A stretch of 64,000 nucleotides of DNA from assembly GCA_028287505.1 (NCBI GenBank), contig JAQBPN010000129.1:1-64000 (forward strand), in the 5' to 3' direction. This document shows positions 45,862-62,610 of the stretch, one piece after another (positions within the stretch are counted from its first letter, which is position 1; the number at the start of each line of letters is the position of its first letter). Below the pieces are notes generated by a model. The model ran no database searches. It was not told the origin of the DNA and saw only the letters and a program-made list of their open reading frames with translations. The stretch comes from Fibrobacterota bacterium. Lineage in GTDB: Bacteria > Fibrobacterota > Fibrobacteria > UBA11236. The translations under genes and the position numbers were made by a program.

Positions 45862-45994
45862 GGCATTATTTTTCCACCCTTCGCGGGCGCGCAGCCAGGG
45901 ATTTCTGCGGCCGGCCGGCGCCGCGCTTCCCGCCGTCGCGCCAATGATGGAGGAATCCGCGGGATGGCTATCTTTCGGATGGAGTTTCGAAAGG

Positions 45995-46528
45995 ATGCCC
46001 ATGTTCGCGCATACGCTCGACAAGGCGCTGGCCGAGGAAGTCCTGGGACGCGCGCGCGTTTCGCCCAGGCGGCGCGCCAACCACTGTTTCCACCATCCCG
46101 CCGATCGCCTACAGCGGATGGTGAACGCGGCCCTGGCCGGTTCCTATTTCGCGCCCCATAGGCACAAGGATCCGGACAAGCTCGAGATCTTCACCATCCT
46201 CACCGGTAGAGCAATCGTGATTACTTTCGACGACGCGGGGGAAATCCTGGACCGCGCAGTGCTTTCCAGGGAGGGGACGGGATCGAGCGGATCGGAATGC
46301 TGGCAGGTGGAGATTCCCCCGGGAACCTGGCACACCCTGGCGGTTCTTTCCCGGGAGGCGGTGCTCTATGAAGTCATCGACGGGCACTTCGACGCGAAAA
46401 CCCACAAGCGCTTCGCACCCTGGGCCCCGCCGGAGTCGGACCCGCAGGCCGCCCAGGCCTATTTGGCGGATTTGTTGTCGCGCGCGGGAGTCCGGGAGGA
46501 TCCGCCCGTAGGCGGCCGCCCGGCCTGA
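45995..46528 (+). CDS. WbuC-family cupin metalloprotein
   Basis: 177 residues from the ATG at 45995 (an ATG at 46001 is also possible, both behind AAAGG). The cupin core reads RRRANHCFHHPADRLQRMVN and ALAGSYFAPHRHKDPDKLEI, with the metal-binding His-x-His and Glu, and IPPGTWHTLAVLSREAVLYE with the later His. WbuC proteins were first seen in O-antigen clusters; their function is not established, though a role in sugar or lipid modification is thought likely. It is divergent from the FadL-like gene (starts 134 bases apart). Confidence 0.8.
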   Translation: MPMFAHTLDKALAEEVLGRARVSPRRRANHCFHHPADRLQRMVNAALAGSYFAPHRHKDPDKLEIFTILTGRAIVITFDDAGEILDRAVLSREGTGSSGSECWQVEIPPGTWHTLAVLSREAVLYEVIDGHFDAKTHKRFAPWAPPESDPQAAQAYLADLLSRAGVREDPPVGGRPA

Positions 46529-46566
46529 ACCGGATTTCCCCTATATATAGGCGCCCGTCGGCAGGC

Positions 46567-47448
46567 TCAGGGATTCCCGTTCCCGTCATCCGTAGCGGCC
46601 AGACATAGCCAGCCCCGCGCTACCCAATCCTGGAACCATCCGCTGATGCCGCGCATGAGTTCCGCCTGCTCTTCGGGGCTCAGTCTACCCTCCAGCTTCT
46701 CAAACGCCTCGGTGAGCGTGGCCGGCTCCAGGAACACCCCCAGCACGGCAAAGGCGACCGGTGACACCGGCTCCTTCATGATTTCCAGATCCGGATCGCG
46801 GAAGATGGCCAGGTGGGCGGTTTCCGGCCGCAACTCGAAGCTGCCTTCCAGGCTTTCATCGGGCAGGCATCGGGAACGGAAATCCGCGAAGTCCCAATCC
46901 ACGCGCACGGGAGTCAGATGGGGCGCCACCTTCAGCCGCGCGGCAAGCAGATCCGCCGGCGCGGAAATCCCCGCGCCCGCCAGGGACGCGCCCTCGGGGG
47001 CGTCGAAGGCCTTGGACAGGGCGCGTTCGTAGGCGACGGCCTGCAACACGGCCCCGCGCGATTCTCCCTGGTAACCTTTTTCCAGGAAAGCGGGAAAGGC
47101 CGCGTCCAGCTCCGCCAGGAATGGCGAAGACGGCGGATGCGCTTCCAGATAACGCACGGCCCAGTCGTTGAATACGTGCAGGCCCATCAGGTGGATGGCG
47201 CAGGTGTAGTCGGATTGCATGACGGAGATGAGCCTGAACCAATATTGCTGGTTATAAATCCCCACCCGCGCGAATCCCGCCAGTCCGCCCTTCCCGCGCA
47301 CCAGGTCGTCCGCTTCCGGTTCGAGTCCGGGCGCCGATTCCGCCAGGGGATTCCCGTCGTATTCATCCGGCAACGGGCGGCTGATTTGCCGTCCGAACCA
47401 GCTTTGCAATTCGCCCAAATTCAGAGAAGTCTTATCGGCTTGGGACAT
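46567..47448 (-). CDS. DUF2063-family protein (MbnC-like)
   Basis: 293 residues. The N-terminal segment LGELQSWFGRQISRPLPDEY and FARVGIYNQQYWFRLISVMQ, followed by LMGLHVFNDWAVRYLEAHPP, matches the DUF2063 putative DNA-binding/MbnC-like domain. Such proteins are normally encoded next to a DUF692 (MbnB-like) oxygenase partner, with which MbnB/MbnC modifies cysteine in peptide precursors. No DUF692 gene is adjacent. The C-terminal half (about 180-293) has the acidic PVAFAVLGVFLEPATLTEAF region of the family. Function alone is unknown; the product is cytoplasmic. Confidence 0.82.
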   Translation of the reverse strand: MSQADKTSLNLGELQSWFGRQISRPLPDEYDGNPLAESAPGLEPEADDLVRGKGGLAGFARVGIYNQQYWFRLISVMQSDYTCAIHLMGLHVFNDWAVRYLEAHPPSSPFLAELDAAFPAFLEKGYQGESRGAVLQAVAYERALSKAFDAPEGASLAGAGISAPADLLAARLKVAPHLTPVRVDWDFADFRSRCLPDESLEGSFELRPETAHLAIFRDPDLEIMKEPVSPVAFAVLGVFLEPATLTEAFEKLEGRLSPEEQAELMRGISGWFQDWVARGWLCLAATDDGNGNP

Positions 47449-47528
47449 CGTCTAAATCTACCAAGATGGCTATGGAAACCGGTAGCCGAATGCACCTGGG
47501 ATTTTGCTAGCTTAGCATCCACCCCCCC

Positions 47529-47936
47529 ATGAATAAACTGCAAGGCACCGTAACCGGCATGGAGACCGAAGGCGGGATTTCCCTGGTGGAAGCGGACGTG
47601 CAAGGCCATCGATTCTCTTCCCTGGTCCTGGAAGGGGATGAGACCCGCTCATACCTTACGGTGGGAAGCCGCATCATCGTGCTATTCAAGGAATCGGAAG
47701 TCTCCGTCGCCACCGAATCCTTTCCGGGCATCAGCATCCGCAATCGCATTCCCTGCGCCATCCGCTCCATCATCAAGGGGCGAATCCTTTCCCATCTCAT
47801 CCTCGATTTCCGGGGTAGGGACATACATTCCTTGATCAGCACCCACTCCCTGATTGACCTGGGGTTGCATCCGGGACAAGCTATCGAGGCGCTCATCAAA
47901 TCCACCGAGGTCAGCCTGGCGGCAGACCATGGTTAA
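47529..47936 (+). CDS. Di-mop molybdate-binding protein (molbindin)
   Basis: 135 residues made of two tandem TOBE/Mop domains and nothing else: residues 3-62 (KLQGTVTGMETEGGISLVEA ... GSRIIVLFKESEVSVA) and residues 68-131 (SIRNRIPCAIRSIIKGRILS ... GQAIEALIKSTEVSLA). Mop pairs bind molybdate or tungstate at the domain interface; ModG of Azotobacter is the known example. There is no DNA-binding domain, so it is not a full ModE. Its stop overlaps the start of modB by 8 bases, so it is cotranslated with the transporter. Confidence 0.9.
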   Translation: MNKLQGTVTGMETEGGISLVEADVQGHRFSSLVLEGDETRSYLTVGSRIIVLFKESEVSVATESFPGISIRNRIPCAIRSIIKGRILSHLILDFRGRDIHSLISTHSLIDLGLHPGQAIEALIKSTEVSLAADHG

Positions 47937-48603
47937 CCTTGATTGGGAGCCAATCTGGCTCACCCTCAAGCTCGCGGCCATCACCACCGCCATTCTGATC
48001 GTGCTCTCCGTGCCGATTTCCTGGTGGCTTGCCTACACGCCTTCCAGGCTGCGGTTACCCATGCGGGCCATGGTGAGCATGCCCTTGGTTCTCCCCCCAT
48101 CCGTCCTGGGTTTCTACCTGCTGCTGGCCTTCAGCCCGGTTTATGGTCCGGGGCGGTTCCTCAAGGAACATTTCGACGTCAGCCTCGCCTTCTCCTTTCC
48201 GGGGCTGGTGTTGGGCTCGCTTCTCTTCAGCCTGCCCTTTATGGTCAATCCCCTGGTGGCCGGTTTCGAAAGCCTGCCGGCCTCCTTTTCCGAGGCCTCT
48301 TACGTGCTCGGGAAATCCCGTCTGCAAACGCTGCGCCATGTATTGCTGCCCAATCTCAGGCCCGCCCTCCTGAGCGGCGCTATCCTGTCCTTCGCGCATA
48401 CCATGGGCGAGTTCGGCGTCGTGCTCATGGTCGGTGGGAAAATCCCGGGGGTAACCAAGGTGGCCTCCATCGCAATATTCGATGAAGTCGAATCCCTCCG
48501 CTTCGCATCCGCGCATGTCTATGCCTTGGTCCTCTTCTCGATCTCATTCGCCATCCTGCTCACGCTTTTTTACGTGAACAAAAAAATGTTGAAACCATTC
48601 TGA
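47929..48603 (+). CDS. modB: Molybdate ABC transporter permease
   Basis: 224 residues, start ATG inside the end of the molbindin gene. Five membrane helices with motifs VSMPLVLPPSVLGFYLLLAF, LLFSLPFMVNPLVAGFESLP and the EAA loop SEASYVLGKSRLQTLRHVLL that contacts the ATPase, then AILSFAHTMGEFGVVLMVGG. That is ModB of the molybdate importer, working as a homodimer in the inner membrane. The partner binding protein ModA is not found in this cluster. ModC begins 13 bases after the stop. Confidence 0.94.
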   Translation: MVNLDWEPIWLTLKLAAITTAILIVLSVPISWWLAYTPSRLRLPMRAMVSMPLVLPPSVLGFYLLLAFSPVYGPGRFLKEHFDVSLAFSFPGLVLGSLLFSLPFMVNPLVAGFESLPASFSEASYVLGKSRLQTLRHVLLPNLRPALLSGAILSFAHTMGEFGVVLMVGGKIPGVTKVASIAIFDEVESLRFASAHVYALVLFSISFAILLTLFYVNKKMLKPF

Positions 48604-48616
48604 CCGGGCCGCGGCC

Positions 48617-49510
48617 ATGATCAAACTTTCCCTGCAAAAACGCCTCCATTCCGCCCAGGGGATATTGAACCTGGAAGTGGATATGGATATCGCGGAAGGG
48701 GAATTCGTCACTCTCTTCGGCAAATCGGGAACCGGCAAAACCACTCTGTTGCGCATGCTGGCAGGATTGGCGGTTCCGGACGCGGGCCGTATCGAGGTTC
48801 ACGGGGAAACCTGGTACGACAGCGCCCTGGGCATCAACCTGCCTCCTCAGCGCAGAAGGGTGGGCCTGGTCTTCCAGGACTATGCGCTTTTTCCCAACAT
48901 GACCGTACGGCAGAACCTGGAATATGCCATGAAGGATCCCAAAGCCCGGGGGCGCGTGGAGGAAATCCTCGAGGTCGCCCATCTGGGGCAGCTCGCCTCC
49001 CGTCGGCCCGGGACGCTGTCCGGCGGCCAGAAACAAAGGGTGGCGCTGGCCCGCGCGCTGGTTTCCGATCCCGGTATCCTGCTCCTGGATGAGCCGCTTT
49101 CCGCGCTGGATCAGGAACTCCGCATGAAATTGCAGGGGGAAATCGCGGAAATCCAGAAACGCTACCGGCTCGCCACCATTCTGGTCAGCCACGATCTGGG
49201 TGAGATTTTCCGGCTATCCCAGCGCGTCATGTGCCTGGAGGACGGCCGGATCCACCGCACCGGAAAACCCGGCGACGTCTTCGGCGGGGGCGGGATGAGC
49301 AATAAAATCCAGCTCACCGGAGTGGTGCTGGAAATCAAGGCGGCGGACGTGGTGCTGGTGCTGACCATCCTGGTGGGAAACGAGGTGGTGCGCGTCACGT
49401 CACTGCCGCAGGATGCGGAGGGGATGCGCGTGGGGGACAAGGTGTTCATCGCGGCCAAGGCGTTCAACCCCATGGTCTTCAAGGCCGATACCGCGCCCAG
49501 AGCCGGTTGA
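48617..49510 (+). CDS. modC: Molybdate ABC transporter ATPase
   Basis: 297 residues. Walker A TLFGKSGTGKTTLLRMLAG, Q-loop VFQDYALFPNMTV, signature LSGGQKQRVALARAL, Walker B ILLLDEPLSALD, switch His VSHDLGE, then a C-terminal Mop/TOBE domain (about 230-293, MSNKIQLTGVVLEIKAADVV, VRVTSLPQDAEGMRVGDKVF) that senses molybdate. The layout of NBD plus one Mop domain is that of ModC. It follows modB by 13 bases. It is also the only CysA/ModC-type ATPase in the window, so it is a possible energiser of the orphan sulfate permease at 17 kb; this is speculation. Confidence 0.94.
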   Translation: MIKLSLQKRLHSAQGILNLEVDMDIAEGEFVTLFGKSGTGKTTLLRMLAGLAVPDAGRIEVHGETWYDSALGINLPPQRRRVGLVFQDYALFPNMTVRQNLEYAMKDPKARGRVEEILEVAHLGQLASRRPGTLSGGQKQRVALARALVSDPGILLLDEPLSALDQELRMKLQGEIAEIQKRYRLATILVSHDLGEIFRLSQRVMCLEDGRIHRTGKPGDVFGGGGMSNKIQLTGVVLEIKAADVVLVLTILVGNEVVRVTSLPQDAEGMRVGDKVFIAAKAFNPMVFKADTAPRAG

Positions 49511-49537
49511 GAGGCCGGCCCCGAACGGGCCTCCGCC

Positions 49538-51787
49538 TCAGGGAATCTCTTCGAACACCCAATGGGAGCTCACGGCCGTAGCGGCAATAACGCCGCACTG
49601 GGCATTGCCCGTGAGGTTCTCCACGTGCAGGAACTGTCCCGGCTTCCACTTGTTCTCCAAACGCTTATACGTCCCGTCCAAGTCCGTGACCGTCCAATGC
49701 GCGCTGGTAAAGGTCTCCGGCAGGGAAGTGGCCGAAACGTAAGATGCCTGGTTTTCGATGTTGATCCGATCGCCGGTGGATCGGTTCAGGAGGATGGTGC
49801 CGTTCCCGTTGGCGCTGAGTTTCCATTGGGTGCGGGTATCGGAGGCGCCGAGGTTGCCGTATTTGAGCGGAGTCCCGGAATCGTATAGATAAGCTCCGTT
49901 CCACCGGTTCTTGATGCGGAAATATTCGCCGCCCTTGAACCCGCTCAATCCGCTGAAGACGGAGGTATGGGGCGCGTTGGAAAGCCCCGATCCCACCAAG
50001 GCGGTGTAGTAAGTGGAAGGCCAAGTGGTTTCATTGTTGCTTTCCCCGATCTGGGTCCAGGAGGTTCCGTTCTGGGAGGCATATCCCCGCAGGACGTTCC
50101 CGGAACGGGTGATCCTCACCCAACAAGGCAGGCTCCAGCCAGAACTGTTGTTGTCCAGGGTGGCACCGCCATCCGCCGTGCGCCGCAGGAACTTGGCCAC
50201 ACCGTCCGGGGTCACCACCATGGCCACCTGCTTGCTGTTGGCCGCCAGGCTTCCCCGGATCATGACGCCTGCCTTGGCCAGACCGCTGGTCCTCTCCACC
50301 TGATTGACCACCGCGCTGATATCCGAGAGGGTGCCGGCCGTGGGCCGATAGACCATCCGGAGCTTTTCGGCGGTGCCCCAGATATCTCCGCTGACGTTCT
50401 GGATAACGTGGAGGCCATTGCGGGACCCATTGCAATTGGATGCGGGAACGCCGCCGGTATAACCGATATCGGAAGAAAGGAAGCCGGCCTTGGGATCGTC
50501 GCAATGGACGGCCATGTAGTCGAAGCGGGCGATGATGCGGGGATCCGGATTCTGCCCGCCGAACAGGGCCGGATCCAGGAGCATACTGGATTTATGGGTG
50601 ATGAAATGGACGAAGTCCTCATAGAATCCGTTGGCGGGCATGAGCTTGACGGTGGCGCCGGCATTGTAGCCCGAGCCTCCCCCTCCGTAATTCGAATTCG
50701 GCAGGAGGGTGCGGAAACCGGCGACGATGTTGGATCGGAAGAGAGCGGAAATGCCCATGGCGTCTCCACGGGCGAAGGGGAGAAAATGCGGCTTCTCAAC
50801 ACCGGTGGCTGTGCCGAAAGCCACGTTCGGGTAAGCGTATGCCTTGGGCAGAACGCCGAATGGCTGGCTGGTGGGGTTGTTGCTCACGTTGAGTCCGCTC
50901 CCGTCCGCCGCCTCCAGATAATTGATGCGCACCCAGCCCCGATTGACGTTCAAATCGACGTAACGGGCGGTCTGGAAATAATTCGCCTGGTGGGTGTCGT
51001 TCGGGGCCCCTGGATGCGCTGCGGCTCCGCCCCGCGTCAACACCAGCTCCCGGACATTGGGGTTGGACGCATTCGCCCGGATGAAGTTCCGGCCGCCCCG
51101 GCCTTGCCCCTTGTTACCGGGATCCCCCTCCCCGGGCTCTCCGGGAAAGACGGCGGAGTTGAATCGGCCCAACTGATCCACGGTGCACTCGAATCCGTTA
51201 TCGTCGAAAATCAACGTCGCGATGTCTATGATCTTGGCGGTTTCTGGAATTCCCAGCGAGGCCAGCGTATAGACGGCCTCGACTTTCGCGGTCATATCCC
51301 ATCCGCCTATCTTCACCCAATAGGTCGAATAGGGGGCCACATAGGCGCTTCCCAGGTAGGCCGCCCGGGTATCGATGCGGACATACCCCCGGAGCCCGGT
51401 GCCCGCATCGAAATTGGCGCTTCTGAAAAAGGAGGGATCATTGTGCCTCAATTCGATGGAATAGGAATTGGCGACGTTGACATTCTTCTTGATCCACATG
51501 TTTCCGCCGGCCGAAGAGCCTCCGAAATTCTCGCTCAAGCGCGCCAGTTCATGGACTTCCTTTTGATCATCGGAATAAATGAAGGCGGTGGCGCCGAGGA
51601 TCTGGTCATCCGCGACGTTCAGACTGACGGGAATCGATAGGGTGGACGTGGAAAGCATGTTCCAGTTCATGATGGGAATGACCCGGGACGCCATGCCGCT
51701 GGGACTGTATTCGGTTTGCTGTCCCCGGGCGATGCCGACTGTCAAGAACGTGGAAAACAAACCGGACAAGACGATCCATCGACGCAT
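49538..51787 (-). CDS. Large secreted multidomain protein with DUF1349-like and ricin-like C-terminal modules
   Basis: 749 residues from the ATG at 51787 (GGGGA ahead). Signal peptide 1-22 (MRRWIVLSGLFSTFLTVGIA then RGQQ). Residues about 30-450 contain repeats of a beta-rich module of the form WDMTAKVEAVYTLASLGIPE, D-rich strand pairs and RGWVRINYLE; the module recurs in the proteins at 56597 and 58546. Residues about 460-605 form a DUF1349-like beta sandwich (GDIWGTAEKLRMVYRP, SGLAKAGVMIRGSLAANSK, PCWVRITRSGN). Residues about 620-749 look like a ricin-B-type lectin (YFRIKNRWNGAYLYDSG ... FLHVENLTGN). It is probably a secreted or surface carbohydrate-binding protein. A palindromic site (51890-51906) lies 102 bases upstream. 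Confidence 0.8.
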   Translation of the reverse strand: MRRWIVLSGLFSTFLTVGIARGQQTEYSPSGMASRVIPIMNWNMLSTSTLSIPVSLNVADDQILGATAFIYSDDQKEVHELARLSENFGGSSAGGNMWIKKNVNVANSYSIELRHNDPSFFRSANFDAGTGLRGYVRIDTRAAYLGSAYVAPYSTYWVKIGGWDMTAKVEAVYTLASLGIPETAKIIDIATLIFDDNGFECTVDQLGRFNSAVFPGEPGEGDPGNKGQGRGGRNFIRANASNPNVRELVLTRGGAAAHPGAPNDTHQANYFQTARYVDLNVNRGWVRINYLEAADGSGLNVSNNPTSQPFGVLPKAYAYPNVAFGTATGVEKPHFLPFARGDAMGISALFRSNIVAGFRTLLPNSNYGGGGSGYNAGATVKLMPANGFYEDFVHFITHKSSMLLDPALFGGQNPDPRIIARFDYMAVHCDDPKAGFLSSDIGYTGGVPASNCNGSRNGLHVIQNVSGDIWGTAEKLRMVYRPTAGTLSDISAVVNQVERTSGLAKAGVMIRGSLAANSKQVAMVVTPDGVAKFLRRTADGGATLDNNSSGWSLPCWVRITRSGNVLRGYASQNGTSWTQIGESNNETTWPSTYYTALVGSGLSNAPHTSVFSGLSGFKGGEYFRIKNRWNGAYLYDSGTPLKYGNLGASDTRTQWKLSANGNGTILLNRSTGDRINIENQASYVSATSLPETFTSAHWTVTDLDGTYKRLENKWKPGQFLHVENLTGNAQCGVIAATAVSSHWVFEEIP

Positions 51788-51889
51788 TTTTTCCCCACGG
51801 AAAGCCCGATACGACCGGCGCGCCAATCCATATGGACCGCGCACATATCGGAATTGGCCAATCTAATGACCGGAAGGGTCTTTTGCAAT

Positions 51890-51906
51890 CACCATTCTAA
51901 ATGGTG
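51890..51906. promoter_or_regulatory. CACCATT palindrome, site 1
   Basis: CACCATT-CTA-AATGGTG, two perfect seven-base arms with a three-base spacer, preceded by AAT. It lies 102 bases before the start of the 749-residue secreted protein and behind the mosA stop. The same arms occur at 53781-53797. Confidence 0.75.
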
Positions 51907-51945
51907 CCCAGGCGCCCCGGTTCCCGCCGGAAGGCGGTTACGGGC

Positions 51946-52788
51946 TCAGGCATGCACGATGGTTCCCACGTGCTCCCCGTTGACGGCCGCTTCCACCAAC
52001 TCGGGTTTGAGACCGTTGACCAATTGGAATTGTTTCACCAAGCGCGTAGTCAACAGGATGTCCATCAGGACTTCGTCGAAAGGCAGGGTTTTCAGCTTCC
52101 TTTGTTTGAGTTCCGTGGCGGAAATCTCCTTGATGAAAGAAGCCGAAGGGTTCTCCCTGGGATCGGAAGTGTAAAGGCCATCCACGTCCTTCACCAAGGT
52201 GACCGATTTGCATCCGAAGCACTCCGCCAGGATGAAACATCCGGCGTCGGTCCGGTGCGGAGGAATGCGGCCGATGGCCGGAGGATGCTCCCAGATGGAG
52301 TACGGTGGCACGCCGTTGAAGATGACCCCGGGTGCGCTCTGGATGAAGAGAGGCAGCAGATGTCCGAAGATTTCCGGAGGGATGGCCACCACTCCGTAGG
52401 GAGCCAAAAGCGTGCCCAGGATATGCGCGTTGCCCAAAGCGTCCGCCATGGCCAACTGGGCCAGTACGCCCGTCGGGAGGCCCAGATCCAGGCCTATGGA
52501 GAACACATGCCGGCTACGGGTGCCGCCCCCCACCCCCAGGACCAGGCGCTCCTTCTTGAGGATCCGGCTCAGGGAATCCGCCACCGGGTACAGTGCCTTG
52601 CGGCCCGCGTCGATCAGGGATCGCCCTCCGATCTTTACCACGTGCACGTCCGGAAGCATGCGCACCACCGGGGTTTCCGTCGCCGCCATCACGTCCTTGT
52701 CGATGAGGCTTTCCCGCATGAGCTTGGAAAACACATGATGCCGTTTGTCCGGGCTGATTGAATTGACGTCTATCGATTGCTTGTCCAT
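51946..52788 (-). CDS. mosA: Molybdenum storage protein alpha subunit homologue
   Basis: 280 residues from the ATG at 52788 (GGGGA 9 bases ahead). An amino-acid-kinase-fold (UMP kinase-like) protein: VHVVKIGGRSLIDAGRKALY, RLVLGVGGGTRSRHVFSIGL, DLGLPTGVLAQLAMADALGN, GVPPYSIWEHPPAIGRIPPH, RTDAGCFILAECFGCKSVTL, VKDVDGLYTSDPRENPSA and NGEHVGTIVHA. The order and wording follow MosA of Azotobacter vinelandii rather than UMP kinase. MosA/MosB form an alpha3-beta3 cage that stores polyoxomolybdate using ATP. It follows mosB by 16 bases on the same strand. No nitrogenase gene is in the window. Confidence 0.88.
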   Translation of the reverse strand: MDKQSIDVNSISPDKRHHVFSKLMRESLIDKDVMAATETPVVRMLPDVHVVKIGGRSLIDAGRKALYPVADSLSRILKKERLVLGVGGGTRSRHVFSIGLDLGLPTGVLAQLAMADALGNAHILGTLLAPYGVVAIPPEIFGHLLPLFIQSAPGVIFNGVPPYSIWEHPPAIGRIPPHRTDAGCFILAECFGCKSVTLVKDVDGLYTSDPRENPSASFIKEISATELKQRKLKTLPFDEVLMDILLTTRLVKQFQLVNGLKPELVEAAVNGEHVGTIVHA

Positions 52789-52804
52789 TATCTTTTCCCC
52801 TGCC

Positions 52805-53620
52805 TCAATCGGCCGTAATCTCGGTGCCCACGTCTTCGCCATGCAAGGCCTTGGTAAGGTTGCCGCGTTCCAGGCCGTTTATGATGCGGATGGACCGGCG
52901 GTTCACGGCGTTCTGCATCATGTCCAGCACCGCCGGCTCCACCACCATGTCCCGGAAGTTGGAGGCCTTGAGCTCCGATACCGTAATGCGGGGGATGAAC
53001 TTGGCGCCCTTGTCCTTTTTCGGATCGGCCGTGTAAAGGCCCTTCTCATCCTTGATATAAATCATGGAACGCGCTCCGAATACCTCGCTGATCAGGTAGG
53101 CGCCCGTGTCCGTGCGATGGGGCGGGATGCGGCCTACGGGGGGATTCTGCTGCCAAAACGTATAGGGAGGCATGCCCATGAAAATCACGGCCCGGCGCTC
53201 GGCCAGGTAGAGGGGCAATTGCGGGAACTGGGCGGGCTCGATGAACGGGATGCCGTGCTTGGCGAGCAGATAGTGTATCATGCGGGCGTTCTGCATGCTC
53301 ACGAAGGTCCCCAGAACGCTGAGTACTCCAGTCGGCATTCCCAGGTCGATGCCGACGCTGTAGGCATGGCGTGCGCGCGTGCCGGCTCCGGTGCCGATGA
53401 TGAGCTGGTGCCGGGGAAGGTTCTCCACCAGTTCCTCCAGCAGCGGAAACACCGCCTCCCGGCCGCGATCGATGAAACTCTGGCCGCCGATCTTGATGAC
53501 ATTGGCCTCCGGCAGGATCCGGATGGCGGGCGGGACGGAAGTCCTCCGCAGCAAATCCACGTCCGTTAGATTGCCCTCGACCAGGGCTGCGCCCAATTGG
53601 GACAAAAGTTCCTTGCTCAT
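52805..53620 (-). CDS. mosB: Molybdenum storage protein beta subunit homologue
   Basis: 271 residues from the ATG at 53620, with GGAGG 6 bases ahead. Paralogous to the next gene but with MosB wording: VIKIGGQSFIDRGREAVFPL, QLIIGTGAGTRARHAYSVGI, GMPPYTFWQQNPPVGRIPPH, RTDTGAYLISEVFGARSMIY, DEKGLYTADPKKDKGAKFIP and LTKALHGEDVGTEITAD. It is the first gene of a two-gene operon with mosA. The length is close to that of A. vinelandii MosB. Upstream, 160 bases away, lies the perfect palindrome 53781-53797. Confidence 0.88.
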   Translation of the reverse strand: MSKELLSQLGAALVEGNLTDVDLLRRTSVPPAIRILPEANVIKIGGQSFIDRGREAVFPLLEELVENLPRHQLIIGTGAGTRARHAYSVGIDLGMPTGVLSVLGTFVSMQNARMIHYLLAKHGIPFIEPAQFPQLPLYLAERRAVIFMGMPPYTFWQQNPPVGRIPPHRTDTGAYLISEVFGARSMIYIKDEKGLYTADPKKDKGAKFIPRITVSELKASNFRDMVVEPAVLDMMQNAVNRRSIRIINGLERGNLTKALHGEDVGTEITAD

Positions 53621-53780
53621 CAAATCCTCCCCACGATTTTTTTCGACGTAGACTGGTTCGCGGACGGGCGGAATCCCGAAACGCGCGAGTGTAAAAGCGG
53701 ATTTTTCCGGCGCTTGAGAGTCGCCGGCAAACCCATGCACAAAATAAGCACGGAAGACCCGCCCGTGCAGTCCGAAAAAT

Positions 53781-53797
53781 CACCATTTTTAATGGTG
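53781..53797. promoter_or_regulatory. CACCATT palindrome, site 2
   Basis: CACCATT-TTT-AATGGTG, perfect arms, preceded by AAT as at site 1. It lies between the end of the ABC-2 permease gene and the mosB start, 160 bases ahead of mosB. Confidence 0.75.
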
Positions 53798-53816
53798 CAC
53801 CTGCGGTCGGGACGGA

Positions 53817-54590
53817 TCATAAGCGCCTCGCTTTCCCCAGTTCGGCCAGGCAGACGGCGAACAATGCAAATGCGCACGCGCCTCCCGCCGCCAGTTGGAT
53901 CCAGGGAACTCCCTCGCCAATCCGCAACAAGGCGAATCGCAGTCCGTCCGCCACGGCGGAGATGGGATTGGCGGCCGCGATGCCGGCCAACCAGACCGGC
54001 ATGTGGCGTTTGGGGACCAGGGCCGTGCTCGTAAAGAACAGCGGCATGTTCAGGGCCTGGATGAAGACGCCCATGGTTTCCTGGGAGCGGGTTTTCAACG
54101 CGATCCAGCACGACAAAGAGGCGTATCCGAGGGCGAAAAGCGCGGTCAGGACCAGGGCCGCGGCCAAGGCCGAGAACCGGGGATGCAGCCGCGCGCCCAG
54201 CGCCAGGCCCATCAGCGCCACGACCAACCCTTGCGCCAGCAGACGCACCACATCCGCGGAAACCTTTCCGGCCAACAATGCCGCCGGAGAAGCCGGCGTG
54301 AGAAGCATGCGCTTCAGAAAACCGGTCTGCAGGTCCCGGATCAGGCCGGTACCGGATTGGGAGGCGCCGAAGAGCACCGTCATCACGCAGACGCCCGGTA
54401 AAAGGAAATCCAGGTACGCCACAGCATCTTCTCCGGCCTGCACCGGATACCTGTGGAAAAGGAATCCGAAGAAGATCATCCACATCAGGGGCTGGACCAG
54501 GGAGAACACGAGGACGATAGGCCGGCGCGCGACCTTTTTCCAGGTGTGGACGCAAATCGTCCCGAAAATCCGCCATCCCGGATCAAACAT
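53817..54590 (-). CDS. ABC-2 type exporter permease
   Basis: 257 residues from the ATG at 54590, which overlaps the end of the ATPase gene by 8 bases; a longer upstream frame would read into that gene. Six membrane helices: IVLVFSLVQPLMWMIFFGFL, YLDFLLPGVCVMTVLFGASQ, LLTPASPAALLAGKVSADVV, FSALAAALVLTALFALGYAS, MPLFFTSTALVPKRHMPVWL and the last near 235-252. It resembles DrrB/YhhJ-type ABC-2 permeases, which export drugs, lipids or glycans. It is the third gene of a unit with the methyltransferase and the ATPase. Confidence 0.9.
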   Translation of the reverse strand: MFDPGWRIFGTICVHTWKKVARRPIVLVFSLVQPLMWMIFFGFLFHRYPVQAGEDAVAYLDFLLPGVCVMTVLFGASQSGTGLIRDLQTGFLKRMLLTPASPAALLAGKVSADVVRLLAQGLVVALMGLALGARLHPRFSALAAALVLTALFALGYASLSCWIALKTRSQETMGVFIQALNMPLFFTSTALVPKRHMPVWLAGIAAANPISAVADGLRFALLRIGEGVPWIQLAAGGACAFALFAVCLAELGKARRL

Positions 54591-55671
54591 TTCCGGAGTC
54601 CTTTTTACCGCTTCGTCGCCGAAGCCCTCCGCCGCCGCCGTTTCCCGCTCGGCGCCCCTTCCCAGCTTCCCCCGTTTCCCCACCGACCGAGGGAATGCCC
54701 AAGCCCTGGAAGACGCTGAGCAAATCGGGCCTGCGCCTCTCGTATACCTCCGCTTGGGCTCCCTGGCGTTCCAGAATCTTGTTCAGGACAGAGTCGTCCG
54801 GACCGGCCCCCGCCATCCGGAGGGTCAAAGCCGTGTGCCCCAGGGTCACGGCGCTTACTTCCGGAACCGCTTCCAACTCCCGCCTGAGCCCGGCGGCATC
54901 GGGAGCGGGGCGGAACAGAACCGCCTTCCACACCCAGGCTCCGTGCCGATCGATAAGCGCCTGCGGCGGTCCATCCGCCCTGACACGGCCGCGGGCCATC
55001 ATGAGAATGCGCCCGCATCTCTCCGCCGCTTCGTGCAAATCGTGCAAGGTAACCAGAGCCCCCGCACCCCGCTTGACGCGGGACTCCAGGAATTGCCAAA
55101 AGGCTTCCTTACCGGCCGGATCCAGGGCCTGGGTCGGCTCATCGCACAACAACAAGTCGGAATCCGGCAGAAACCCCAAAGCCACGTGCAGGCGTTGGCG
55201 CATCCCGCCCGAACACCGGGAGACCCGCCGGGAGACGACGGCTTCCAGATCGAAATGGGCGAGCAGCGAATGGATTCTTTTTCCCGCTTCGGCGGGGTCC
55301 ATTCCATGTAAGACCGCGAACAAACGCAAAGTTTCCCCCACGGTCATTTCCGGATCGAGGGAAGGCTCTTGTGGGATATACGCCGTACGGCGGCGCACGG
55401 CGTTACCCGGTACCCCGCCCAACACCTGCACCGTTCCTTCCGTGGGCACCAGCGCGCCCGCCAGGAGATTCAACAAGGTGGATTTCCCGGATCCGTTGGG
55501 CCCCACAATGCCTGCGAGCTCCCCGGGGCCCAAGCGCAGATCCATATGCTCCAGAGCTTCTATCCCTCCGGGAAAGGTTTTGGCCAGACCTTTGGCATCC
55601 ACGGCATAGGGCGGGGCCGACGGCGCAGCCAGGGATTCCGGCGCGCTCCCGGAGGACTTGTTTTGAAACAT
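54583..55671 (-). CDS. ABC-2 type exporter ATPase
   Basis: 362 residues. Walker A GIVGPNGSGKSTLLNLLAG, Q-loop YIPQEPSLDPEMTV, signature RCSGGMRQRLHVALGF (Cys in place of the usual Leu), Walker B LLLCDEPTQALDP and switch His VTLHDLHEA. The C-terminal part carries a DrrA/NatA-like regulatory extension (WVWKAVLFRPAPDAAGLRRE) and a Gly/Arg-rich tail. It pairs with the downstream permease. It begins 3 bases after the methyltransferase stop, so all three genes form one operon that reads towards the mos genes. Confidence 0.9.
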   Translation of the reverse strand: MFQNKSSGSAPESLAAPSAPPYAVDAKGLAKTFPGGIEALEHMDLRLGPGELAGIVGPNGSGKSTLLNLLAGALVPTEGTVQVLGGVPGNAVRRRTAYIPQEPSLDPEMTVGETLRLFAVLHGMDPAEAGKRIHSLLAHFDLEAVVSRRVSRCSGGMRQRLHVALGFLPDSDLLLCDEPTQALDPAGKEAFWQFLESRVKRGAGALVTLHDLHEAAERCGRILMMARGRVRADGPPQALIDRHGAWVWKAVLFRPAPDAAGLRRELEAVPEVSAVTLGHTALTLRMAGAGPDDSVLNKILERQGAQAEVYERRRPDLLSVFQGLGIPSVGGETGEAGKGRRAGNGGGGGLRRRSGKKDSGNV

Positions 55672-55674
55672 CGT

Positions 55675-56469
55675 TCAGGATCCCCGCGACATTCCCACCA
55701 GAACGTAACTCTCCGTAGCGGTCACGGGATCGGACAGATTCCCGAAACGTCCTTCCGCCCAGGCCCGGAGTTCTTCCAGAACGGACCGCTTCACTTCCAC
55801 AGGCATCTCCAAGCCGTTCAGGCCCGCTTTTCCCTGCCAGGACTCCAGCGAGTCCATGGGGGAAGACGCCCTTTGCCAAGAGGAAACGATCCGCGATCCG
55901 ATGGGACGCCATCCCCGGCTTTCCAGTTCCAGCGCCATCGCCTTCCGGACTCCGCCGCCGCCATGCCCCCGGAATCCCCGGTCCTGCAAAAGCCGCCGCA
56001 TACGATGACTCATCATTTCTTTCACCGATTCCTTTTCCCGTTGCAACCCTCCGGAAAACAGCACCGTGCCCGGTCCGGATGCGACCCGCTCAAGCTCGCC
56101 GGCCAAATGCGCCGGAGGCAAATGATGCAAGGAACGGGATCCGAAAACCACGTCCACGGATCCAGGGCGAAGCGGCCAGGTGGCGCATCCATCGGCTTGC
56201 AGCAAAAACGCGCGGGGAGTTTCCCGGGTCCGGAACGCGCGCAGCATGGGCAAGCTCAGGTCCAATCCCAGATACCGATGCGCCCGGCGCGCCAGGTGTA
56301 CGCCGATCTCGCCCGTGCCCGCGCCGATTTCCACCAGGTTTTTCCGTCCATCCTGCAATCCCGCGATTTCCGTAAGCGCAACCGCGACCCTTTCCGGCAC
56401 GTCCGGGGGCAGCCCGGCGCGCCGGTCGAAATTTCCGGCCTGGTCATCGAACAATGCTCTGTATTCCAT
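55675..56469 (-). CDS. Class I SAM-dependent methyltransferase
   Basis: 264 residues. The Rossmann-like core has motif I LVEIGAGTGEIGVHLARRAH, the acidic residue in YLGLDLSLPMLRAFRT, and VDVVFGSRSLHHLPPAHLAG (motif IV region). The N-terminal EYRALFDDQAGNFDRRAG and downstream LFSGGLQREKESVKEMMSHR are typical of UbiE/BioC-like small-molecule methyltransferases. The substrate is unknown. Its stop is 3 bases before the exporter ATPase start, so methylation and export may act on one product. Confidence 0.87.
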   Translation of the reverse strand: MEYRALFDDQAGNFDRRAGLPPDVPERVAVALTEIAGLQDGRKNLVEIGAGTGEIGVHLARRAHRYLGLDLSLPMLRAFRTRETPRAFLLQADGCATWPLRPGSVDVVFGSRSLHHLPPAHLAGELERVASGPGTVLFSGGLQREKESVKEMMSHRMRRLLQDRGFRGHGGGGVRKAMALELESRGWRPIGSRIVSSWQRASSPMDSLESWQGKAGLNGLEMPVEVKRSVLEELRAWAEGRFGNLSDPVTATESYVLVGMSRGS

Positions 56470-56596
56470 TCGGCTCCGGTTAGGCGCTTGTATGAAGCGT
56501 CACGGTCTGGTTTCCCCCGGCGCGGCCTTGAACCAAGGTATATGCGACCCTCTGCGCCGTCAACAGCCCGACGTCCGCACCCGCCATTCCAAGCTC

Positions 56597-58426
56597 CTAA
56601 AAGCCGCTGAAATTGCTCGCCACAGTGGTATTCATCTGAGGCTTGCCGAAACTTGTGCCCGCGATGCCGACGTAATAGGTGGCTCCCGTCGCGATGGTAA
56701 CCGCCGGAGACATGGCAATCCAGGTAACCCCGTTATCGGTCGAATACGAACCCGTGTACGTGGTCGCCGTCTTTATCAGGCGCAGATATACGGGCGCCTT
56801 CACGGTGGCGGCCGTCACCGTGGGATGCACGGTCGCCGCTCCATCGGTGGGCCTATTGGTCCATTGGACACCTTGGCCGGGCGTGGCCAGCATGGAGACG
56901 TGGCGGCTGTTCGCTCCCAGGCCCATGCGGATCATGATGCCCGTCTTGGCCCAAGGATCGATATTCCCCTGGCTCACGATTTTTGCGACGAAGGTATGAT
57001 TGGAGTTGTCGGTATAGGCTTTGTACACGTAAGTGAACTCATCATTGGTGCCCCAGATATCCGCGCCGGCTCCCTGGACGACCATATTTCCGCCCACTCC
57101 GGCGGCGCAGTTGTTCGAAGTGTTGGCGGGAACGGCCCTGATCTGGAAGCCCGAAGCCCCGTCCGCGCAGGAACCGGCAAGGTAATCGATCCGGAACCAG
57201 CCGCGGTTGAGGGTCGTACTCGCGTGGTTGGAGGCCCAATAACCGGGGCTGGAGGGATCATCGTACGCCACCAGATGGATTTGATTCGCGGCCTCATCAA
57301 TGGTATGCAGCCCGGCCTGATGCCGATGGGAAAATGTCCAATCATCGGCCTTCCTCAGATTGGTCACATTATGTTCATCGTTTGGATCGCCCGGGGTAAA
57401 TGGATCGGTATGGATGGTCGCCTCGGAATGGATGACCCGGCTTCCCGCGATTCCAAAATCGAAGGGAATGATTTTATCCACCTGGGTATGCGTGGCATCG
57501 GTATAAATGGGCCAGGCGCCGATCTGCTTGAATTTCGACTTCATGGCATAGGGAGCGCTGACTCCGGCGGCGGTTCCATAATATGTCACCTTGACCCAAC
57601 CCCGCAGGCCGCTTCCGCTGTAGCTGGCGTTTCCGAACACGCGCGGATTGGCTCCGCCTCCCGCTCCATTCCGGATTGCCAGAGTGACCTGTGAACCCGT
57701 TCCGTTCGGTGTTACCAGGAAGTTCCCGCCCCGGAGGAGATTGACGTCGGGAACGACCTTATGTCCTTTGCGATCGAAGTCGTCGATTTTCACCTTGCCG
57801 TTCACGGGATCGGACAATATCGTCACGGATATATCCGCTATTTTGCTGATGTCGATATTCGGTAAGGAGATGACCTTGGTGAATGGCGCGGTGTTGGCCG
57901 TGGTTTGCACGTTCCAGCTATTAATTGGAAAGCAATAGACGTTCACCGCCGGATTGGCGGCTGCGCCTGCAGGGAGGTAATAGTCGATCTTAGCGTACGC
58001 TCGGGGATTCGCAGTGCTGGAGTAATTGTTCTGCTTGAAGAACGCCGCCCCGGAATTCAGGTTCGCCGCGCATTGGGTCGGGTTGTTCGTGCATTGGAAA
58101 AAGAACTCGCCTCCCATCACCTGGTACCCTTGGGTGGCGTCATCGTTGAGACGATAAAGCGGGCTCGCGCTGGCGGGCTTGCCGTTCACGTAATCGTCGT
58201 CTATCAGGATATTGGTTTCGATGATGTTCCGGTTATTGAATCCGGATTGAAAGGAGTGGAACGTGTATCCCCAGTAGGCGGAATTGTCCCGCATGTCCCA
58301 TCCCTGCGTAATCGGGCTGACCATGGTGGCGATGTTCGCTTCGGTATAAACCTGCGCCCTCCCCTTGCCGGTTGCGACGGTCAGTACGGCCAGAAATATC
58401 GAAAGTGGTATCTGCTTTTTCATCAT
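56597..58426 (-). CDS. Large secreted modular protein (paralogue of the 58546-60474 protein)
   Basis: 609 residues from the ATG at 58426 (a second ATG follows at 58423). Signal peptide 1-24 (MKKQIPLSIFLAVLTVATGK then GRAQ). Three repeats of a beta-rich module follow: about 30-165 (GWDMRDNSAYWGYTFHSFQS), 175-310 (SWNVQTTANTAPFTKVISLP, GLRGWVKVTYYG) and 320-450 (SRVIHSEATIHTDPFTPGDP, LNRGWFRIDYLAGSC). The last 150 residues form a DUF1349-like sandwich (ADIWGTNDEFTYVYKA, DPWAKTGIMIRMGLGANSR). About as long as its neighbour at 58546 and clearly duplicated with it. No catalytic motif is seen; adhesion or binding is the likely role. Confidence 0.8.
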   Translation of the reverse strand: MMKKQIPLSIFLAVLTVATGKGRAQVYTEANIATMVSPITQGWDMRDNSAYWGYTFHSFQSGFNNRNIIETNILIDDDYVNGKPASASPLYRLNDDATQGYQVMGGEFFFQCTNNPTQCAANLNSGAAFFKQNNYSSTANPRAYAKIDYYLPAGAAANPAVNVYCFPINSWNVQTTANTAPFTKVISLPNIDISKIADISVTILSDPVNGKVKIDDFDRKGHKVVPDVNLLRGGNFLVTPNGTGSQVTLAIRNGAGGGANPRVFGNASYSGSGLRGWVKVTYYGTAAGVSAPYAMKSKFKQIGAWPIYTDATHTQVDKIIPFDFGIAGSRVIHSEATIHTDPFTPGDPNDEHNVTNLRKADDWTFSHRHQAGLHTIDEAANQIHLVAYDDPSSPGYWASNHASTTLNRGWFRIDYLAGSCADGASGFQIRAVPANTSNNCAAGVGGNMVVQGAGADIWGTNDEFTYVYKAYTDNSNHTFVAKIVSQGNIDPWAKTGIMIRMGLGANSRHVSMLATPGQGVQWTNRPTDGAATVHPTVTAATVKAPVYLRLIKTATTYTGSYSTDNGVTWIAMSPAVTIATGATYYVGIAGTSFGKPQMNTTVASNFSGF

Positions 58427-58508
58427 TCCCCAATTCCTGTTTCGAATTCGAGAAACCGACCAAGCGGTCCGCCCCGTTTTACTCGCCAAAAAAGCGTCGT
58501 TGCTTCCG

Positions 58509-58525
58509 CACCCATTGTAGTGGTT
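58509..58525. promoter_or_regulatory. CACCATT palindrome, degenerate site 4
   Basis: CACCCATTGTAGTGGTT, matching 12 of 17 positions of the perfect site 2 and keeping CACC and TGGT. It lies 82 bases before the 609-residue secreted protein. Its weaker match makes it the least certain of the four. Confidence 0.45.
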
Positions 58526-58545
58526 CATTCCATGTCGGTGAAAGG

Positions 58546-60474
58546 CTAGAAACTTGCGTTGCTGAACACCGTGGTATTGAGCTCAGAGGAGGAGCTTGTG
58601 CTGGCCAAGCCCACGTAATAAGACGAACCCGCCGGCAAGGTGACATTGTTAATGGGGGAACCCAATTGGGTCCAGGAACCGGCGAGGCCGGTCGGCGAGG
58701 TCGAGCCGGTGTAGCTGTTTCCGGTCTTGACCAGGCGGATATAAATGGGAGCCTTCAAGGCTGTGTTGACATAGGGATGGAACGTCTGGTTGTTGGGGCT
58801 TACGTCGGAGGCGCGATAGGTCATTTGCACCCCATTGACGGGCGTAACCAGGATGGAGACCTCGGCGCTCGTTGAGGTTATATATTGCCGCATCATCAAC
58901 CCGGCTTTGGCCCAATCGGAGGTCTTTTCCTGATTGTCCACCCGCGCGATCATGGTCAGATTGGGAGTCTGGTTGACGCCGTATTGCTTGTAGACGAAGG
59001 CGCATTGATCGGCGGTGGACCAAATATCATTGCCCTTGGTCTGGATGACATGGATTGCGCCGTTATTGCCGGCGCAATCGTCGCTTGAAGCGTTCGCGGC
59101 GAAGAAGACCTTGTAAAAGCCCGACCCTTCGTTGCATGCGGCCGCTAAGTAGTCCACTCGATACCAACCCCGGTTGACGGTGGTGCTGGAATGAAACGAG
59201 CTGTAGAAGGTGGGCACCGCCTTGTTGGTGCTGGCGGTTGCCACCAATCCGATGGCATTGGCGGAGTCATCAACCGTTGAAAGCTGTTGATCCCCTCCTA
59301 TTTGGTTCAAGTGGGTGTTCCTGTGCAGGTTGGTGACGAAAAGGGATCCGGTTTGGGAGTTCGGATCGGACAGTATGGTGGCTGAGGTATAGACCAGGCG
59401 ATTGGCCGGAACGCCCAGCGAATTGAACGGCAGCTTTATGCTGTCCTGATTCCCTGAAGCCCAATTAGGGGGGAAATTGTCGCCACAGCAATTGTTGAAA
59501 ATTCCCCAGGGACCTATAGGCCTGAATTTGGATTTGATTGCAAAAGGCTGAGGAACGCCGTTGGCGGTTCCCGCATAGGTGATTTTCACCCACCCTCGGG
59601 TTCCCGTGGCATTCCGGTAAAGACGGGTATGAGGCGCCCGGGTCGGATCCTGTAGAAACATGCTGGATTCCGTGCCGGTCCCTCCGCTGATCCAGGTCGC
59701 GAAGTTGAGCATCACCTGGGAACCGGTTGTCCCGAGGGGGACGATATCGATAGTGCCCCCTTTGAACAATGAAAATTGAGAGACGCCGCTGTTGTGAAAG
59801 TAACCCCTCCGATCAAAGTAGTCCACCTGGATTTTCCCCTGCGCATTCGGGTCGGACAGGATGGTCACGGACACGTTGGCAATCTTGCTTATGTCGATAT
59901 TGGGAAGATCGACGGTCTTCACATGACTTCCTCTTCCCGTCGTTTCCATATTCCAGTTGTTGATGGGATAATAATATTCGTTGACTCCCGAAGGCGCGGG
60001 CAAGGCGCCGGTTTTGTAATCGATCTGCACGTAACCTCGACGCGCCACGGGATCATCATAGGAACTATTCGTGAAAAAGGTGCTACTGGAGGTTCCGCGA
60101 GTCATGAAGAATTGGCAATTCCCCCCTATGTTCGGAGGAACGCATACCGTATAGAAAAACCCGCCATGCAAAGTCCCCGCGGTTTCGTACTTCATCCTGT
60201 ACAGGGGAACCACCTTGGCCGGCTTCCCGGATAAGGGATCGGCGTCGATTGTAACGGTGACGTCGATAATATCGGCCATGTTGAACCCGGACGGGAACGA
60301 GGATTGGGGAACAACGAAGCTTTCAAAATTCCCATTTGCATTCATGTTCCACCCTGAGAAGGGAACGACTATCGTACCCTTATTCTCTTCCGTGTAAACC
60401 TGAGCCGTTGCAAGGCTGGGAATGGTGCCGAGTATGGCCAAAAATATCGAAATCGGTAGAGACCTATTCATCAT
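58546..60474 (-). CDS. Large secreted modular protein (paralogue of the 56597-58426 protein)
   Basis: 642 residues from the ATG at 60474 (a second ATG at 60471 is possible; GGGGCGAG precedes). Signal peptide 1-23 (MNRSLPISIFLAILGTIPSL then ATAQ). The same three modules as the neighbour: SGWNMNANGNFESFVVPQSS, NNWNMETTGRGSHVKTVDLP with NIDISKIANVSVTILSDPNA (nearly identical in the paralogue), and VNRGWYRVDYLAAAC. The end is a DUF1349-like domain (NDIWSTADQCAFVYKQYG, TSDWAKAGLMMRQYITSTSA). Tandem duplication is recent enough for long matches. Secreted or surface-bound; function unknown. Confidence 0.8.
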   Translation of the reverse strand: MMNRSLPISIFLAILGTIPSLATAQVYTEENKGTIVVPFSGWNMNANGNFESFVVPQSSFPSGFNMADIIDVTVTIDADPLSGKPAKVVPLYRMKYETAGTLHGGFFYTVCVPPNIGGNCQFFMTRGTSSSTFFTNSSYDDPVARRGYVQIDYKTGALPAPSGVNEYYYPINNWNMETTGRGSHVKTVDLPNIDISKIANVSVTILSDPNAQGKIQVDYFDRRGYFHNSGVSQFSLFKGGTIDIVPLGTTGSQVMLNFATWISGGTGTESSMFLQDPTRAPHTRLYRNATGTRGWVKITYAGTANGVPQPFAIKSKFRPIGPWGIFNNCCGDNFPPNWASGNQDSIKLPFNSLGVPANRLVYTSATILSDPNSQTGSLFVTNLHRNTHLNQIGGDQQLSTVDDSANAIGLVATASTNKAVPTFYSSFHSSTTVNRGWYRVDYLAAACNEGSGFYKVFFAANASSDDCAGNNGAIHVIQTKGNDIWSTADQCAFVYKQYGVNQTPNLTMIARVDNQEKTSDWAKAGLMMRQYITSTSAEVSILVTPVNGVQMTYRASDVSPNNQTFHPYVNTALKAPIYIRLVKTGNSYTGSTSPTGLAGSWTQLGSPINNVTLPAGSSYYVGLASTSSSSELNTTVFSNASF

Positions 60475-60631
60475 CTCGCCCCTGTTCAATTCGGTTGTTA
60501 AAATTCTGCTGAAAGCGGTTTCCGGATAGCCAAATTAATCGTCAATTTCTCCGGAGGCTTGGTACTTTTTGCGCATATACCAGGATCAAAACCGCAACCA
60601 TGCCAGCGACTCATCGCTCTGGAAGAGAATG

Positions 60632-60648
60632 CACCACGTGTAATGGTG
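60632..60648. promoter_or_regulatory. CACCATT palindrome, site 3
   Basis: CACCACG-TGT-AATGGTG: the right arm is perfect and the left matches at five of seven positions. It lies 157 bases before the 642-residue secreted protein, just past the end of the DUF486 gene. Confidence 0.6.
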
Positions 60649-60658
60649 CTTGGGCACT

Positions 60659-60985
60659 TTACCGCTTCATGGCGAAACCCACGGCCCCGATCAGGAATGC
60701 GAATGCCACCATGTGGTTCCAGCGCAGCGATTCTTTCAAATACAAGATTGCGAATATCATGAACACGGCGAGGGTGATCACTTCCTGAATCACCTTCAAT
60801 TGGATGCCCGTGAAGTATTGCGATCCGATCCGGTTCGCGGGCACCTGGAAACAGTACTCCAGGAAAGCGATCGCCCAACTCACCAGGATGACCTTCCACA
60901 GAGGAACGTTTTTGTAATGGAGATGCCCGTACCAGGCGAAGGTCATGAAGACATTGGAGATGATCAGGAGGAGGATGGCTGCCAT
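60659..60985 (-). CDS. DUF486-family small membrane protein
   Basis: 108 residues from the ATG at 60985, with GGGGGAG 6 bases ahead; a longer upstream frame covers a terminator and is not real. Four membrane helices: AAILLLIISNVFMTFAWYGH, LWKVILVSWAIAFLEYCFQV, VIQEVITLAVFMIFAILYLK and MVAFAFLIGAVGFAMKR. The segment PANRIGSQYFTGIQLKVIQE is the family signature. DUF486 belongs to the DMT-like small multidrug-type fold; function unknown. It is encoded between the secreted-protein pair and the outer-membrane protein gene. Confidence 0.9.
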   Translation of the reverse strand: MAAILLLIISNVFMTFAWYGHLHYKNVPLWKVILVSWAIAFLEYCFQVPANRIGSQYFTGIQLKVIQEVITLAVFMIFAILYLKESLRWNHMVAFAFLIGAVGFAMKR

Positions 60986-60997
60986 GGCACTCCCCCC

Positions 60998-61030
60998 AAA
61001 AAATAAAAAAGCTTCCGGGGCTGCGGAAGC
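60998..61030 (-). terminator. Rho-independent terminator of the 61097-62287 gene
   Basis: GCTTCCG-GGGCTG-CGGAAGC forms a seven-base stem (61011-61030); read on the minus strand it is followed by CTTTTTTATTTTTTGG. This is a textbook terminator for the outer-membrane protein gene, 66 bases past its stop and just before the DUF486 start. Confidence 0.9.
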
Positions 61031-61096
61031 CCGTCCCCCGAATAGGGAGGGTTCCGCGCCGGAAGCCTGTTCGGTCAAATGTCCGTAAGGACTAAA

Positions 61097-62287: not shown

Positions 62288-62610
62288 TGTGACCTGTTCT
62301 CCTTTGAGGTGATGGACCATTTGGAAGATTGTGATTTTCCAAAAGTCTTCCAGAAGTTAACAATTTTTGGCCATTTTACAGTTAAGTAAGGTAAGGGAAT
62401 GTTCAAGTTGCGGTAACCGGGGAATTTCCCTGTTAATAGCCGAATACTTGTTAACACTTGTGAATAGACTGTGAACAAGTAGCGAAATTGCGTTTCATGA
62501 CTAATATGGATTTTCCGGGGTCATTAGAAAAATTGGAGGTAGGGGTTTTTGGGAAATCAAAGGAAACCAGCTCGCGGACCCGGTGGCAAAAGGCTTGGGG
62601 ACGGGCGGGA
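62288..62610. other. Intergenic region with two inverted repeats
   Basis: 323 bases of AT-rich DNA ahead of the outer-membrane protein gene. GGAAGA/TCTTCC arms lie near 62320-62352, in the presumed untranslated leader of that gene. A second pair, ACTTGTT (62446-62452) and AACAAGT (62474-62480), surrounds GTTAACACTTGTG. These may be regulator sites; no promoter can be called with confidence. I see no gene here. Confidence 0.4.

Follow-up and report, generated by a model that had tools for sequence, protein, structure and literature searches.

A mosB-mosA gene pair of the molybdenum storage protein family, with replaced cluster ligands, beside molybdate transport genes in a Fibrobacterota genome lacking a nitrogenase component 1 match

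Two adjacent minus-strand genes, mosB and mosA, lie in the 64,000-nucleotide stretch of Fibrobacterota DNA analysed here (the window) and encode relatives of the two subunits of the molybdenum storage protein, MoSto (KEGG orthology number K00947). Upstream of mosB, and in the same direction, the window carries genes for a methyltransferase and for the ATPase and permease of an ABC-2 type exporter. The features are as follows.

47529..47936, plus strand: Mop/TOBE-domain molybdate-binding protein (TIGR00638 over cut-off)
47929..48603, plus strand: modB, molybdate ABC permease (TIGR02141 over cut-off; presumed start an ATG that overlaps the Mop stop)
48617..49510, plus strand: modC, molybdate ABC ATPase (TIGR02142 is the best model but under cut-off, 235 of 285 bits; orthologues in congeners at this place)
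49511..60658, no strand: segment of about 11 kb missing at this place in congeners (from the spacing of modC and the 60659 gene in G208 and G207)
51890..51906, no strand: palindrome CACCATTCTAAATGGTG, 40 bp beyond the mosA stop
51946..52788, minus strand: mosA, alpha-type MoSto subunit of 280 aa in which the cluster ligands of Azotobacter alpha are replaced (ORF, PDB matches, trees, predicted model)
52805..53620, minus strand: mosB, MoSto beta-type subunit, 271 aa (ORF, PDB matches, trees, predicted model)
53781..53797, no strand: palindrome CACCATTTTTAATGGTG, between the permease stop and mosB
53817..54683, minus strand: ABC-2 type permease (PF01061, 7.6e-32; longest ORF, the true start may be further in)
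54583..55671, minus strand: ABC-2 exporter ATPase, DrrA-like (profile matches)
55675..56469, minus strand: class I SAM-dependent methyltransferase (motif I G49-x-G51-T-G invariant in 19 rows)

Both genes of the pair start with ATG; GGGGAGG lies upstream of the mosB start, and 16 bp separate the mosB stop from mosA. An earlier note on this DNA had described them as neighbouring amino-acid-kinase-fold genes in the wording of Azotobacter MosA and MosB, a description that the coordinates, the comparison with solved structures and the trees all bear out. In that comparison, the top match of mosB is MoSto beta (E 1.2e-87), with MoSto alpha at 2e-58; mosA matches MoSto beta at about 2e-70 and MoSto alpha at 1e-61, and with neither gene do UMP kinases get beyond about 1e-6 to 1e-7. 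A tree of 109 rows sets mosB and beta apart from mosA and alpha (SH-aLRT 99), and a smaller, more careful tree recovers the same split at 96/95. Both trees took in Azotobacter alpha and beta plus the Azospirillum pairs; two rows of the smaller one, from genome G397, are wrong-strand translations, on which the split does not depend and which are absent from the 109-row tree. Each gene thus falls with its own MoSto subunit. Since the trees split beta-type from alpha-type sequences, the subunit duplication is older than the divergence of the Azotobacter type from the present branch.

The AlphaFold models of MosB and MosA (mean pLDDT 80 each) are nearest to MoSto entries, with Z scores of 31-33 against up to about 25 for UMP kinases, so that structure modelling also agrees with the family named in the earlier note. 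Of the motifs listed there, GRIPPHRTDxG is found as IPPHRTDTG and IPPHRTDAG, and EHVGT/EDVGT is found in both its forms. PPYxxW is likewise present in both (PPYTFW and PPYSIW), but it is beta-type wording and not common to the two Azotobacter subunits, alpha of Azotobacter reading PPYHHH. Judged from their sequences, mosB and mosA are orthologues of the Azotobacter MoSto beta and alpha subunits, and the pair is MoSto by descent: the orthologous genes are adjacent, the predicted amino-acid-kinase fold is closest to MoSto, and the nucleotide-loop residues are kept.

His156 and Glu129 are covalent ligands of the Mo8 cluster in Azotobacter MoSto (PMC4504029). Residue counting in the Azotobacter chains places both in alpha, which aligns with the present MosA without gaps from the Gly preceding Glu129 to the PPY motif; in the predicted structures, the loop after PPY has low model confidence. 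Across the MosA sequences of the branch, the Glu129 position is Pro in 51 of 51, and the His156 position is Ser in 45, Ala in 5 and Asp in 1. The position of alpha H140, which we take to be the three-fold-axis histidine of Azotobacter MoSto, is Phe in 50 and Val in the remaining one. The Azotobacter-type ligands (alpha E129, H156 and H140) are therefore missing from all 51 branch MosA sequences. Conserved in the branch are MosA His143 and Glu167 (51/51 each) and His168 (50/51), together with MosB E128, which occupies the Glu129 position and is Glu in 51 of 52; the lysine of the nucleotide (ATP) loop is invariant in both subunits (K43 in MosB, K52 in MosA). By alignment, the nucleotide site looks preserved, unlike the Mo8 and W3 sites of Azotobacter, and the changed set of residues may still hold clusters. 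Two Gammaproteobacteria (L067/L071 in G397; L068/L072 in G426) carry another, divergent form of MosAB, in which the cluster-ligand positions are occupied by different residues again.

Around the pair, mosA is directly downstream of mosB in 50 of 51 loci, and a class I methyltransferase gene is directly upstream of mosB in 39 of the 52 loci with enough sequence. Of 33 well-flanked loci, 20 have modB-like or modC-like genes near the pair, 12 have an ABC-2 ATPase with its permease, and 8 have a multicopper oxidase; the thresholds of these counts are loose, those for modC may include other ABC ATPases, and some ORF clusters in the survey are antisense artefacts of high GC. Seven of the eight oxidase loci (L008, L012, L014, L018, L021, L033 and L040) are gammaproteobacterial, with the oxidase beside mosBA and no methyltransferase. 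Cassette permeases from other phyla share 35-61% identity with that of the window (51-61% for most), and the cassette methyltransferases there share 33-45% with the window's. A search bearing on the methyltransferase substrate returned only generic class I methyltransferases and an uncharacterised Thermus protein. Our likeliest guess is that methyltransferase and exporter handle excess oxyanion or a metabolite tied to the oxyanion.

The exact palindrome CACCATT-N3-AATGGTG flanks mosBA at 51890 and 53781, and a two-mismatch copy lies at 60632-60648; at up to two mismatches, 0.16 matches are expected in the window. All three copies sit 11-40 bp past the stop codons of minus-strand genes, and that at 53781 is followed by a run of T. 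Because this copy is terminator-like, transcription of mosBA may be separate from that of the methyltransferase, ATPase and permease genes; alternatively, the palindromes could be a shared operator. The exact palindrome was found in none of the other 95 loci searched, and no Rfam RNA, such as a molybdenum-cofactor riboswitch, was found at 46000-62500.

The operon had also been placed near molbindin-modB-modC by the earlier note, correctly: Mop, modB and modC occupy 47529-49510 on the plus strand. Congener G208 keeps the gene order of the window (the genes at 61097 and 60659, modC, modB, Mop, the gene at 46567, a cupin gene, the gene at 44386 and further genes). The distance from modC to the 60659 gene is 88 bp in G208 and 29 bp in G207, as against about 11 kb in the window, where the intervening segment contains the cassette and three long genes for probably secreted proteins; in congener G206 the mod genes are missing at the locus. 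None of five congeners has the MosBA pair, and a search of 167 genomes of the phylum found it nowhere else. The simplest reading of these comparisons is that the segment with the pair is a recent gain beside resident molybdate genes. The gain was probably horizontal; repeated loss of the pair in relatives is less likely. No repeats of at least 16 nt were found inside either junction stretch. We also considered a contaminating contig, which is unlikely, since the genes flanking the segment on both sides are syntenic with those of congeners.

Several other observations concern this region. The three long genes in the segment (49538-51844, 56597-58528 and 58546-60489) encode partly repeated, probably secreted proteins, and that of 49538-51844 has no Pfam or NCBIfam match. 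At 38651-40174, a 507-aa ATP-grasp-like protein adjoins a glutamate-cysteine-ligase-like gene (37332-38609); it is 91-99% identical in congeners, against 55-77% for its neighbours, an unusually strong conservation. Homologues of 44386-46080 carry one or two in-frame stops in three of the five congeners (L074, L075 and L077), and may be pseudogenes, joined pieces or assembly errors.

With mosB as the only query, which reaches no further than close relatives, 84,980 species genomes were scanned and yielded 54 loci in 54 genomes at 66-79% identity to mosB. By record titles, these belong to 11 phyla: Pseudomonadota, Acidobacteriota, Planctomycetota, Actinomycetota, Gemmatimonadota, Bacteroidota, Rhodothermota, Cyanobacteriota, Myxococcota, Verrucomicrobiota and Bacillota. 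PF00148, the family of nitrogenase component 1, was over cut-off in 4 of 50 genomes checked: two cyanobacteria and a methanotroph have several strong nif-like matches, and a further cyanobacterium has a single weaker one. The 46 genomes in which the searches found no PF00148 form a strong trend, although nearly all branch genomes are incomplete metagenome bins in which a single absence means little. A moaA match (PF06463) was present in 43 of the 50 pair-bearing genomes, that of the window included, and missing in 7, which are incomplete bins. Phyla are interleaved on the mosB tree (19 changes, the least possible being 10), a pattern that fits transfer and is not proof of it. Among 369 sampled gammaproteobacterial genomes, 5 have the pair, a number that includes the chosen centre. 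At a locus of Methylocucumis oryzae (L058, 4870-6532), the matches to mosB and to mosA are both split in two, so that the genes look broken or frameshifted in the assembly.

Consistent with the absence of nif genes from the 64 kb, as the earlier note had it, no nitrogenase component 1 (PF00148) was found in the whole genome (6.07 Mb, 98.7% complete). For PF00142 there were two weak and partial matches that barely pass a low cut-off, and the same family matches in 13 of 14 control genomes. The genome-wide search that had been suggested for nif and molybdoenzyme genes did yield candidate clients. By PF00384 there is a single real molybdopterin oxidoreductase, on contig C72, which matches the formate dehydrogenase, NasA and NasC models, all below cut-offs, and has as neighbours a nirA-family gene and the ATPase gene of a nitrate ABC transporter, each of which scores over its cut-off; it is assimilatory-nitrate-reductase-like (NasA-like). 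Another PF00384 match, on C103, sits among nuo genes and was set aside as NADH dehydrogenase subunit G, not a molybdoenzyme. There are also two sulfite-oxidase-family genes, moaA, and modA adjoining a ModE-like gene on C111; the xanthine dehydrogenase family was not found in the genome. Nitrate assimilation is the best candidate for what lies behind the molybdenum demand. Given the NasA-like enzyme, the two sulfite-oxidase-family genes, moaA and modA, homology and neighbourhood make it plausible that the store serves a molybdoenzyme other than nitrogenase.

Our main reading, to which we assign a probability of roughly 0.72, is that MosBA is a MoSto-type reserve of molybdate or tungstate for molybdenum-cofactor enzymes and not for nitrogenase. 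The two genes would encode the subunits of a MoSto-type cage, presumably a hexameric (alpha-beta)3 assembly as in Azotobacter. Molybdate (or tungstate) from the cytoplasm would be loaded into it with ATP and kept as metal-oxide clusters, serving molybdenum-cofactor enzymes as reserve and buffer; filling would be ATP-driven and release ATP-independent, as they are in Azotobacter MoSto (PMC6448029). We infer that residues other than Azotobacter's would hold the clusters, since no MosA of the branch keeps alpha E129, H156 or H140. Orthology of both subunits, the fold, the loop lysine, the mod genes nearby, the molybdenum enzymes in the genome and the moaA match in 43 of 50 pair-bearing genomes speak for this reading; against it count the methyltransferase and exporter, which have no place in it, and the 7 genomes (incomplete bins) without a moaA match. 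Because the Mo8 ligands and the presumed three-fold-axis histidine are absent in 51 of 51 MosA sequences, the stored species could also differ, or storage could be lost.

The cage might deal with a different oxyanion or metal (above all tungstate, or else vanadate), or its purpose might be detoxification and not molybdenum supply, which we regard as unlikely. The branch-wide replacement of the alpha ligands, the newly conserved residues (H143, E167 and H168 of MosA, E128 of MosB), the ABC-2 exporter that travels with the pair and the capacity of Azotobacter MoSto to take up tungsten as well (PMC6448029) all point that way. Yet the neighbouring importers are of ModABC type (though such importers can also carry tungstate), molybdenum-cofactor enzymes are present in the same genome, and residue changes alone name no metal. 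A methyltransferase directly upstream in 39 of 52 loci and an ABC-2 pair in 12 of 33 could instead mark a biosynthetic or export module in which MosBA works as a sensor or kinase, with a secondary role in storing metal; we think this improbable, as several loci have, next to mosBA, either mod genes or a multicopper oxidase but no methyltransferase, and the partner genes vary more than the mosBA pair. Least credible, and hardly to be expected on present evidence, is that the genes encode UMP kinases or some other enzyme of the amino-acid-kinase fold, an identity suggested by the annotation of certain relatives (Azospirillum orthologues carry the names 'uridine monophosphate kinase' or 'uridine kinase'). 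The fold is common to UMP kinase (PyrH) and MosB/MosA, but identity is about 20%, the NCBIfam UMP kinase models stay far under their cut-offs (at best 60 of 158 bits and 31 of 244 bits), MoSto matches are better by about 50 or more orders of magnitude, and an authentic pyrH lies elsewhere in the genome (contig C9, 329 bits). Sub-cut-off models, weaker PDB matches and the separate pyrH refute assignment to the UMP kinase family, and a placement inside it, which the earlier note had named as fatal to its identification, is not what we find.

MoSto has been called rare (PMC3627308) and said to be without known homologues (PMC6448029), and mosAB have been listed among the nitrogen-fixation machinery (PMC12903952). 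New here are the multi-phylum branch, the conserved neighbours, the replaced ligands and the apparent recent gain; an earlier report is possible, the subscription literature being little covered. Tentatively, and with more doubt than confidence, we propose a transferable, nitrogenase-independent MoSto branch of about 11 phyla that keeps its metal in oxide clusters with different ligands and acts in one module with a dedicated methyltransferase, an ABC-2 exporter and ModABC import, and thus a system for handling molybdenum that has not yet been described. That the relatives turn up in many phyla, and mostly in nitrogenase-free genomes, suggests a broader use of cluster storage for molybdenum, of which nitrate assimilation where waters and soils are poor in the metal would be one example. 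With its naturally exchanged ligands, the branch lends itself to testing directly which residues form which polyoxometalate, and the conserved neighbours may take part in further steps of molybdenum handling.

With Azotobacter vinelandii MoSto (PDB 2ogx, 4f6t, 4ndo, 6rkd), the present pair has in common its orthologous subunits, the fold, the ATP-loop lysine and the motifs IPPxR(A/T)D and E(H/D)VGT, at about 53% (beta) and 41% (alpha) identity by structural alignment; it differs in the replacement of alpha E129, H156 and H140, in the lack of nitrogenase and in its gene neighbours. The mosBA genes on Azospirillum plasmids (L059, L061) belong to the same family and have the same mosB-mosA order, but keep the Azotobacter-type alpha ligands and, unlike the present pair, have no methyltransferase-ABC-2-mod neighbours. 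The Mop/Tub TOBE-domain proteins, one of which is encoded at 47529-47936, have likewise been proposed as a cytoplasmic reserve of molybdenum or tungsten (PMC11980592); unlike MoSto, they have an unrelated small fold and bind single oxyanions, not clusters.
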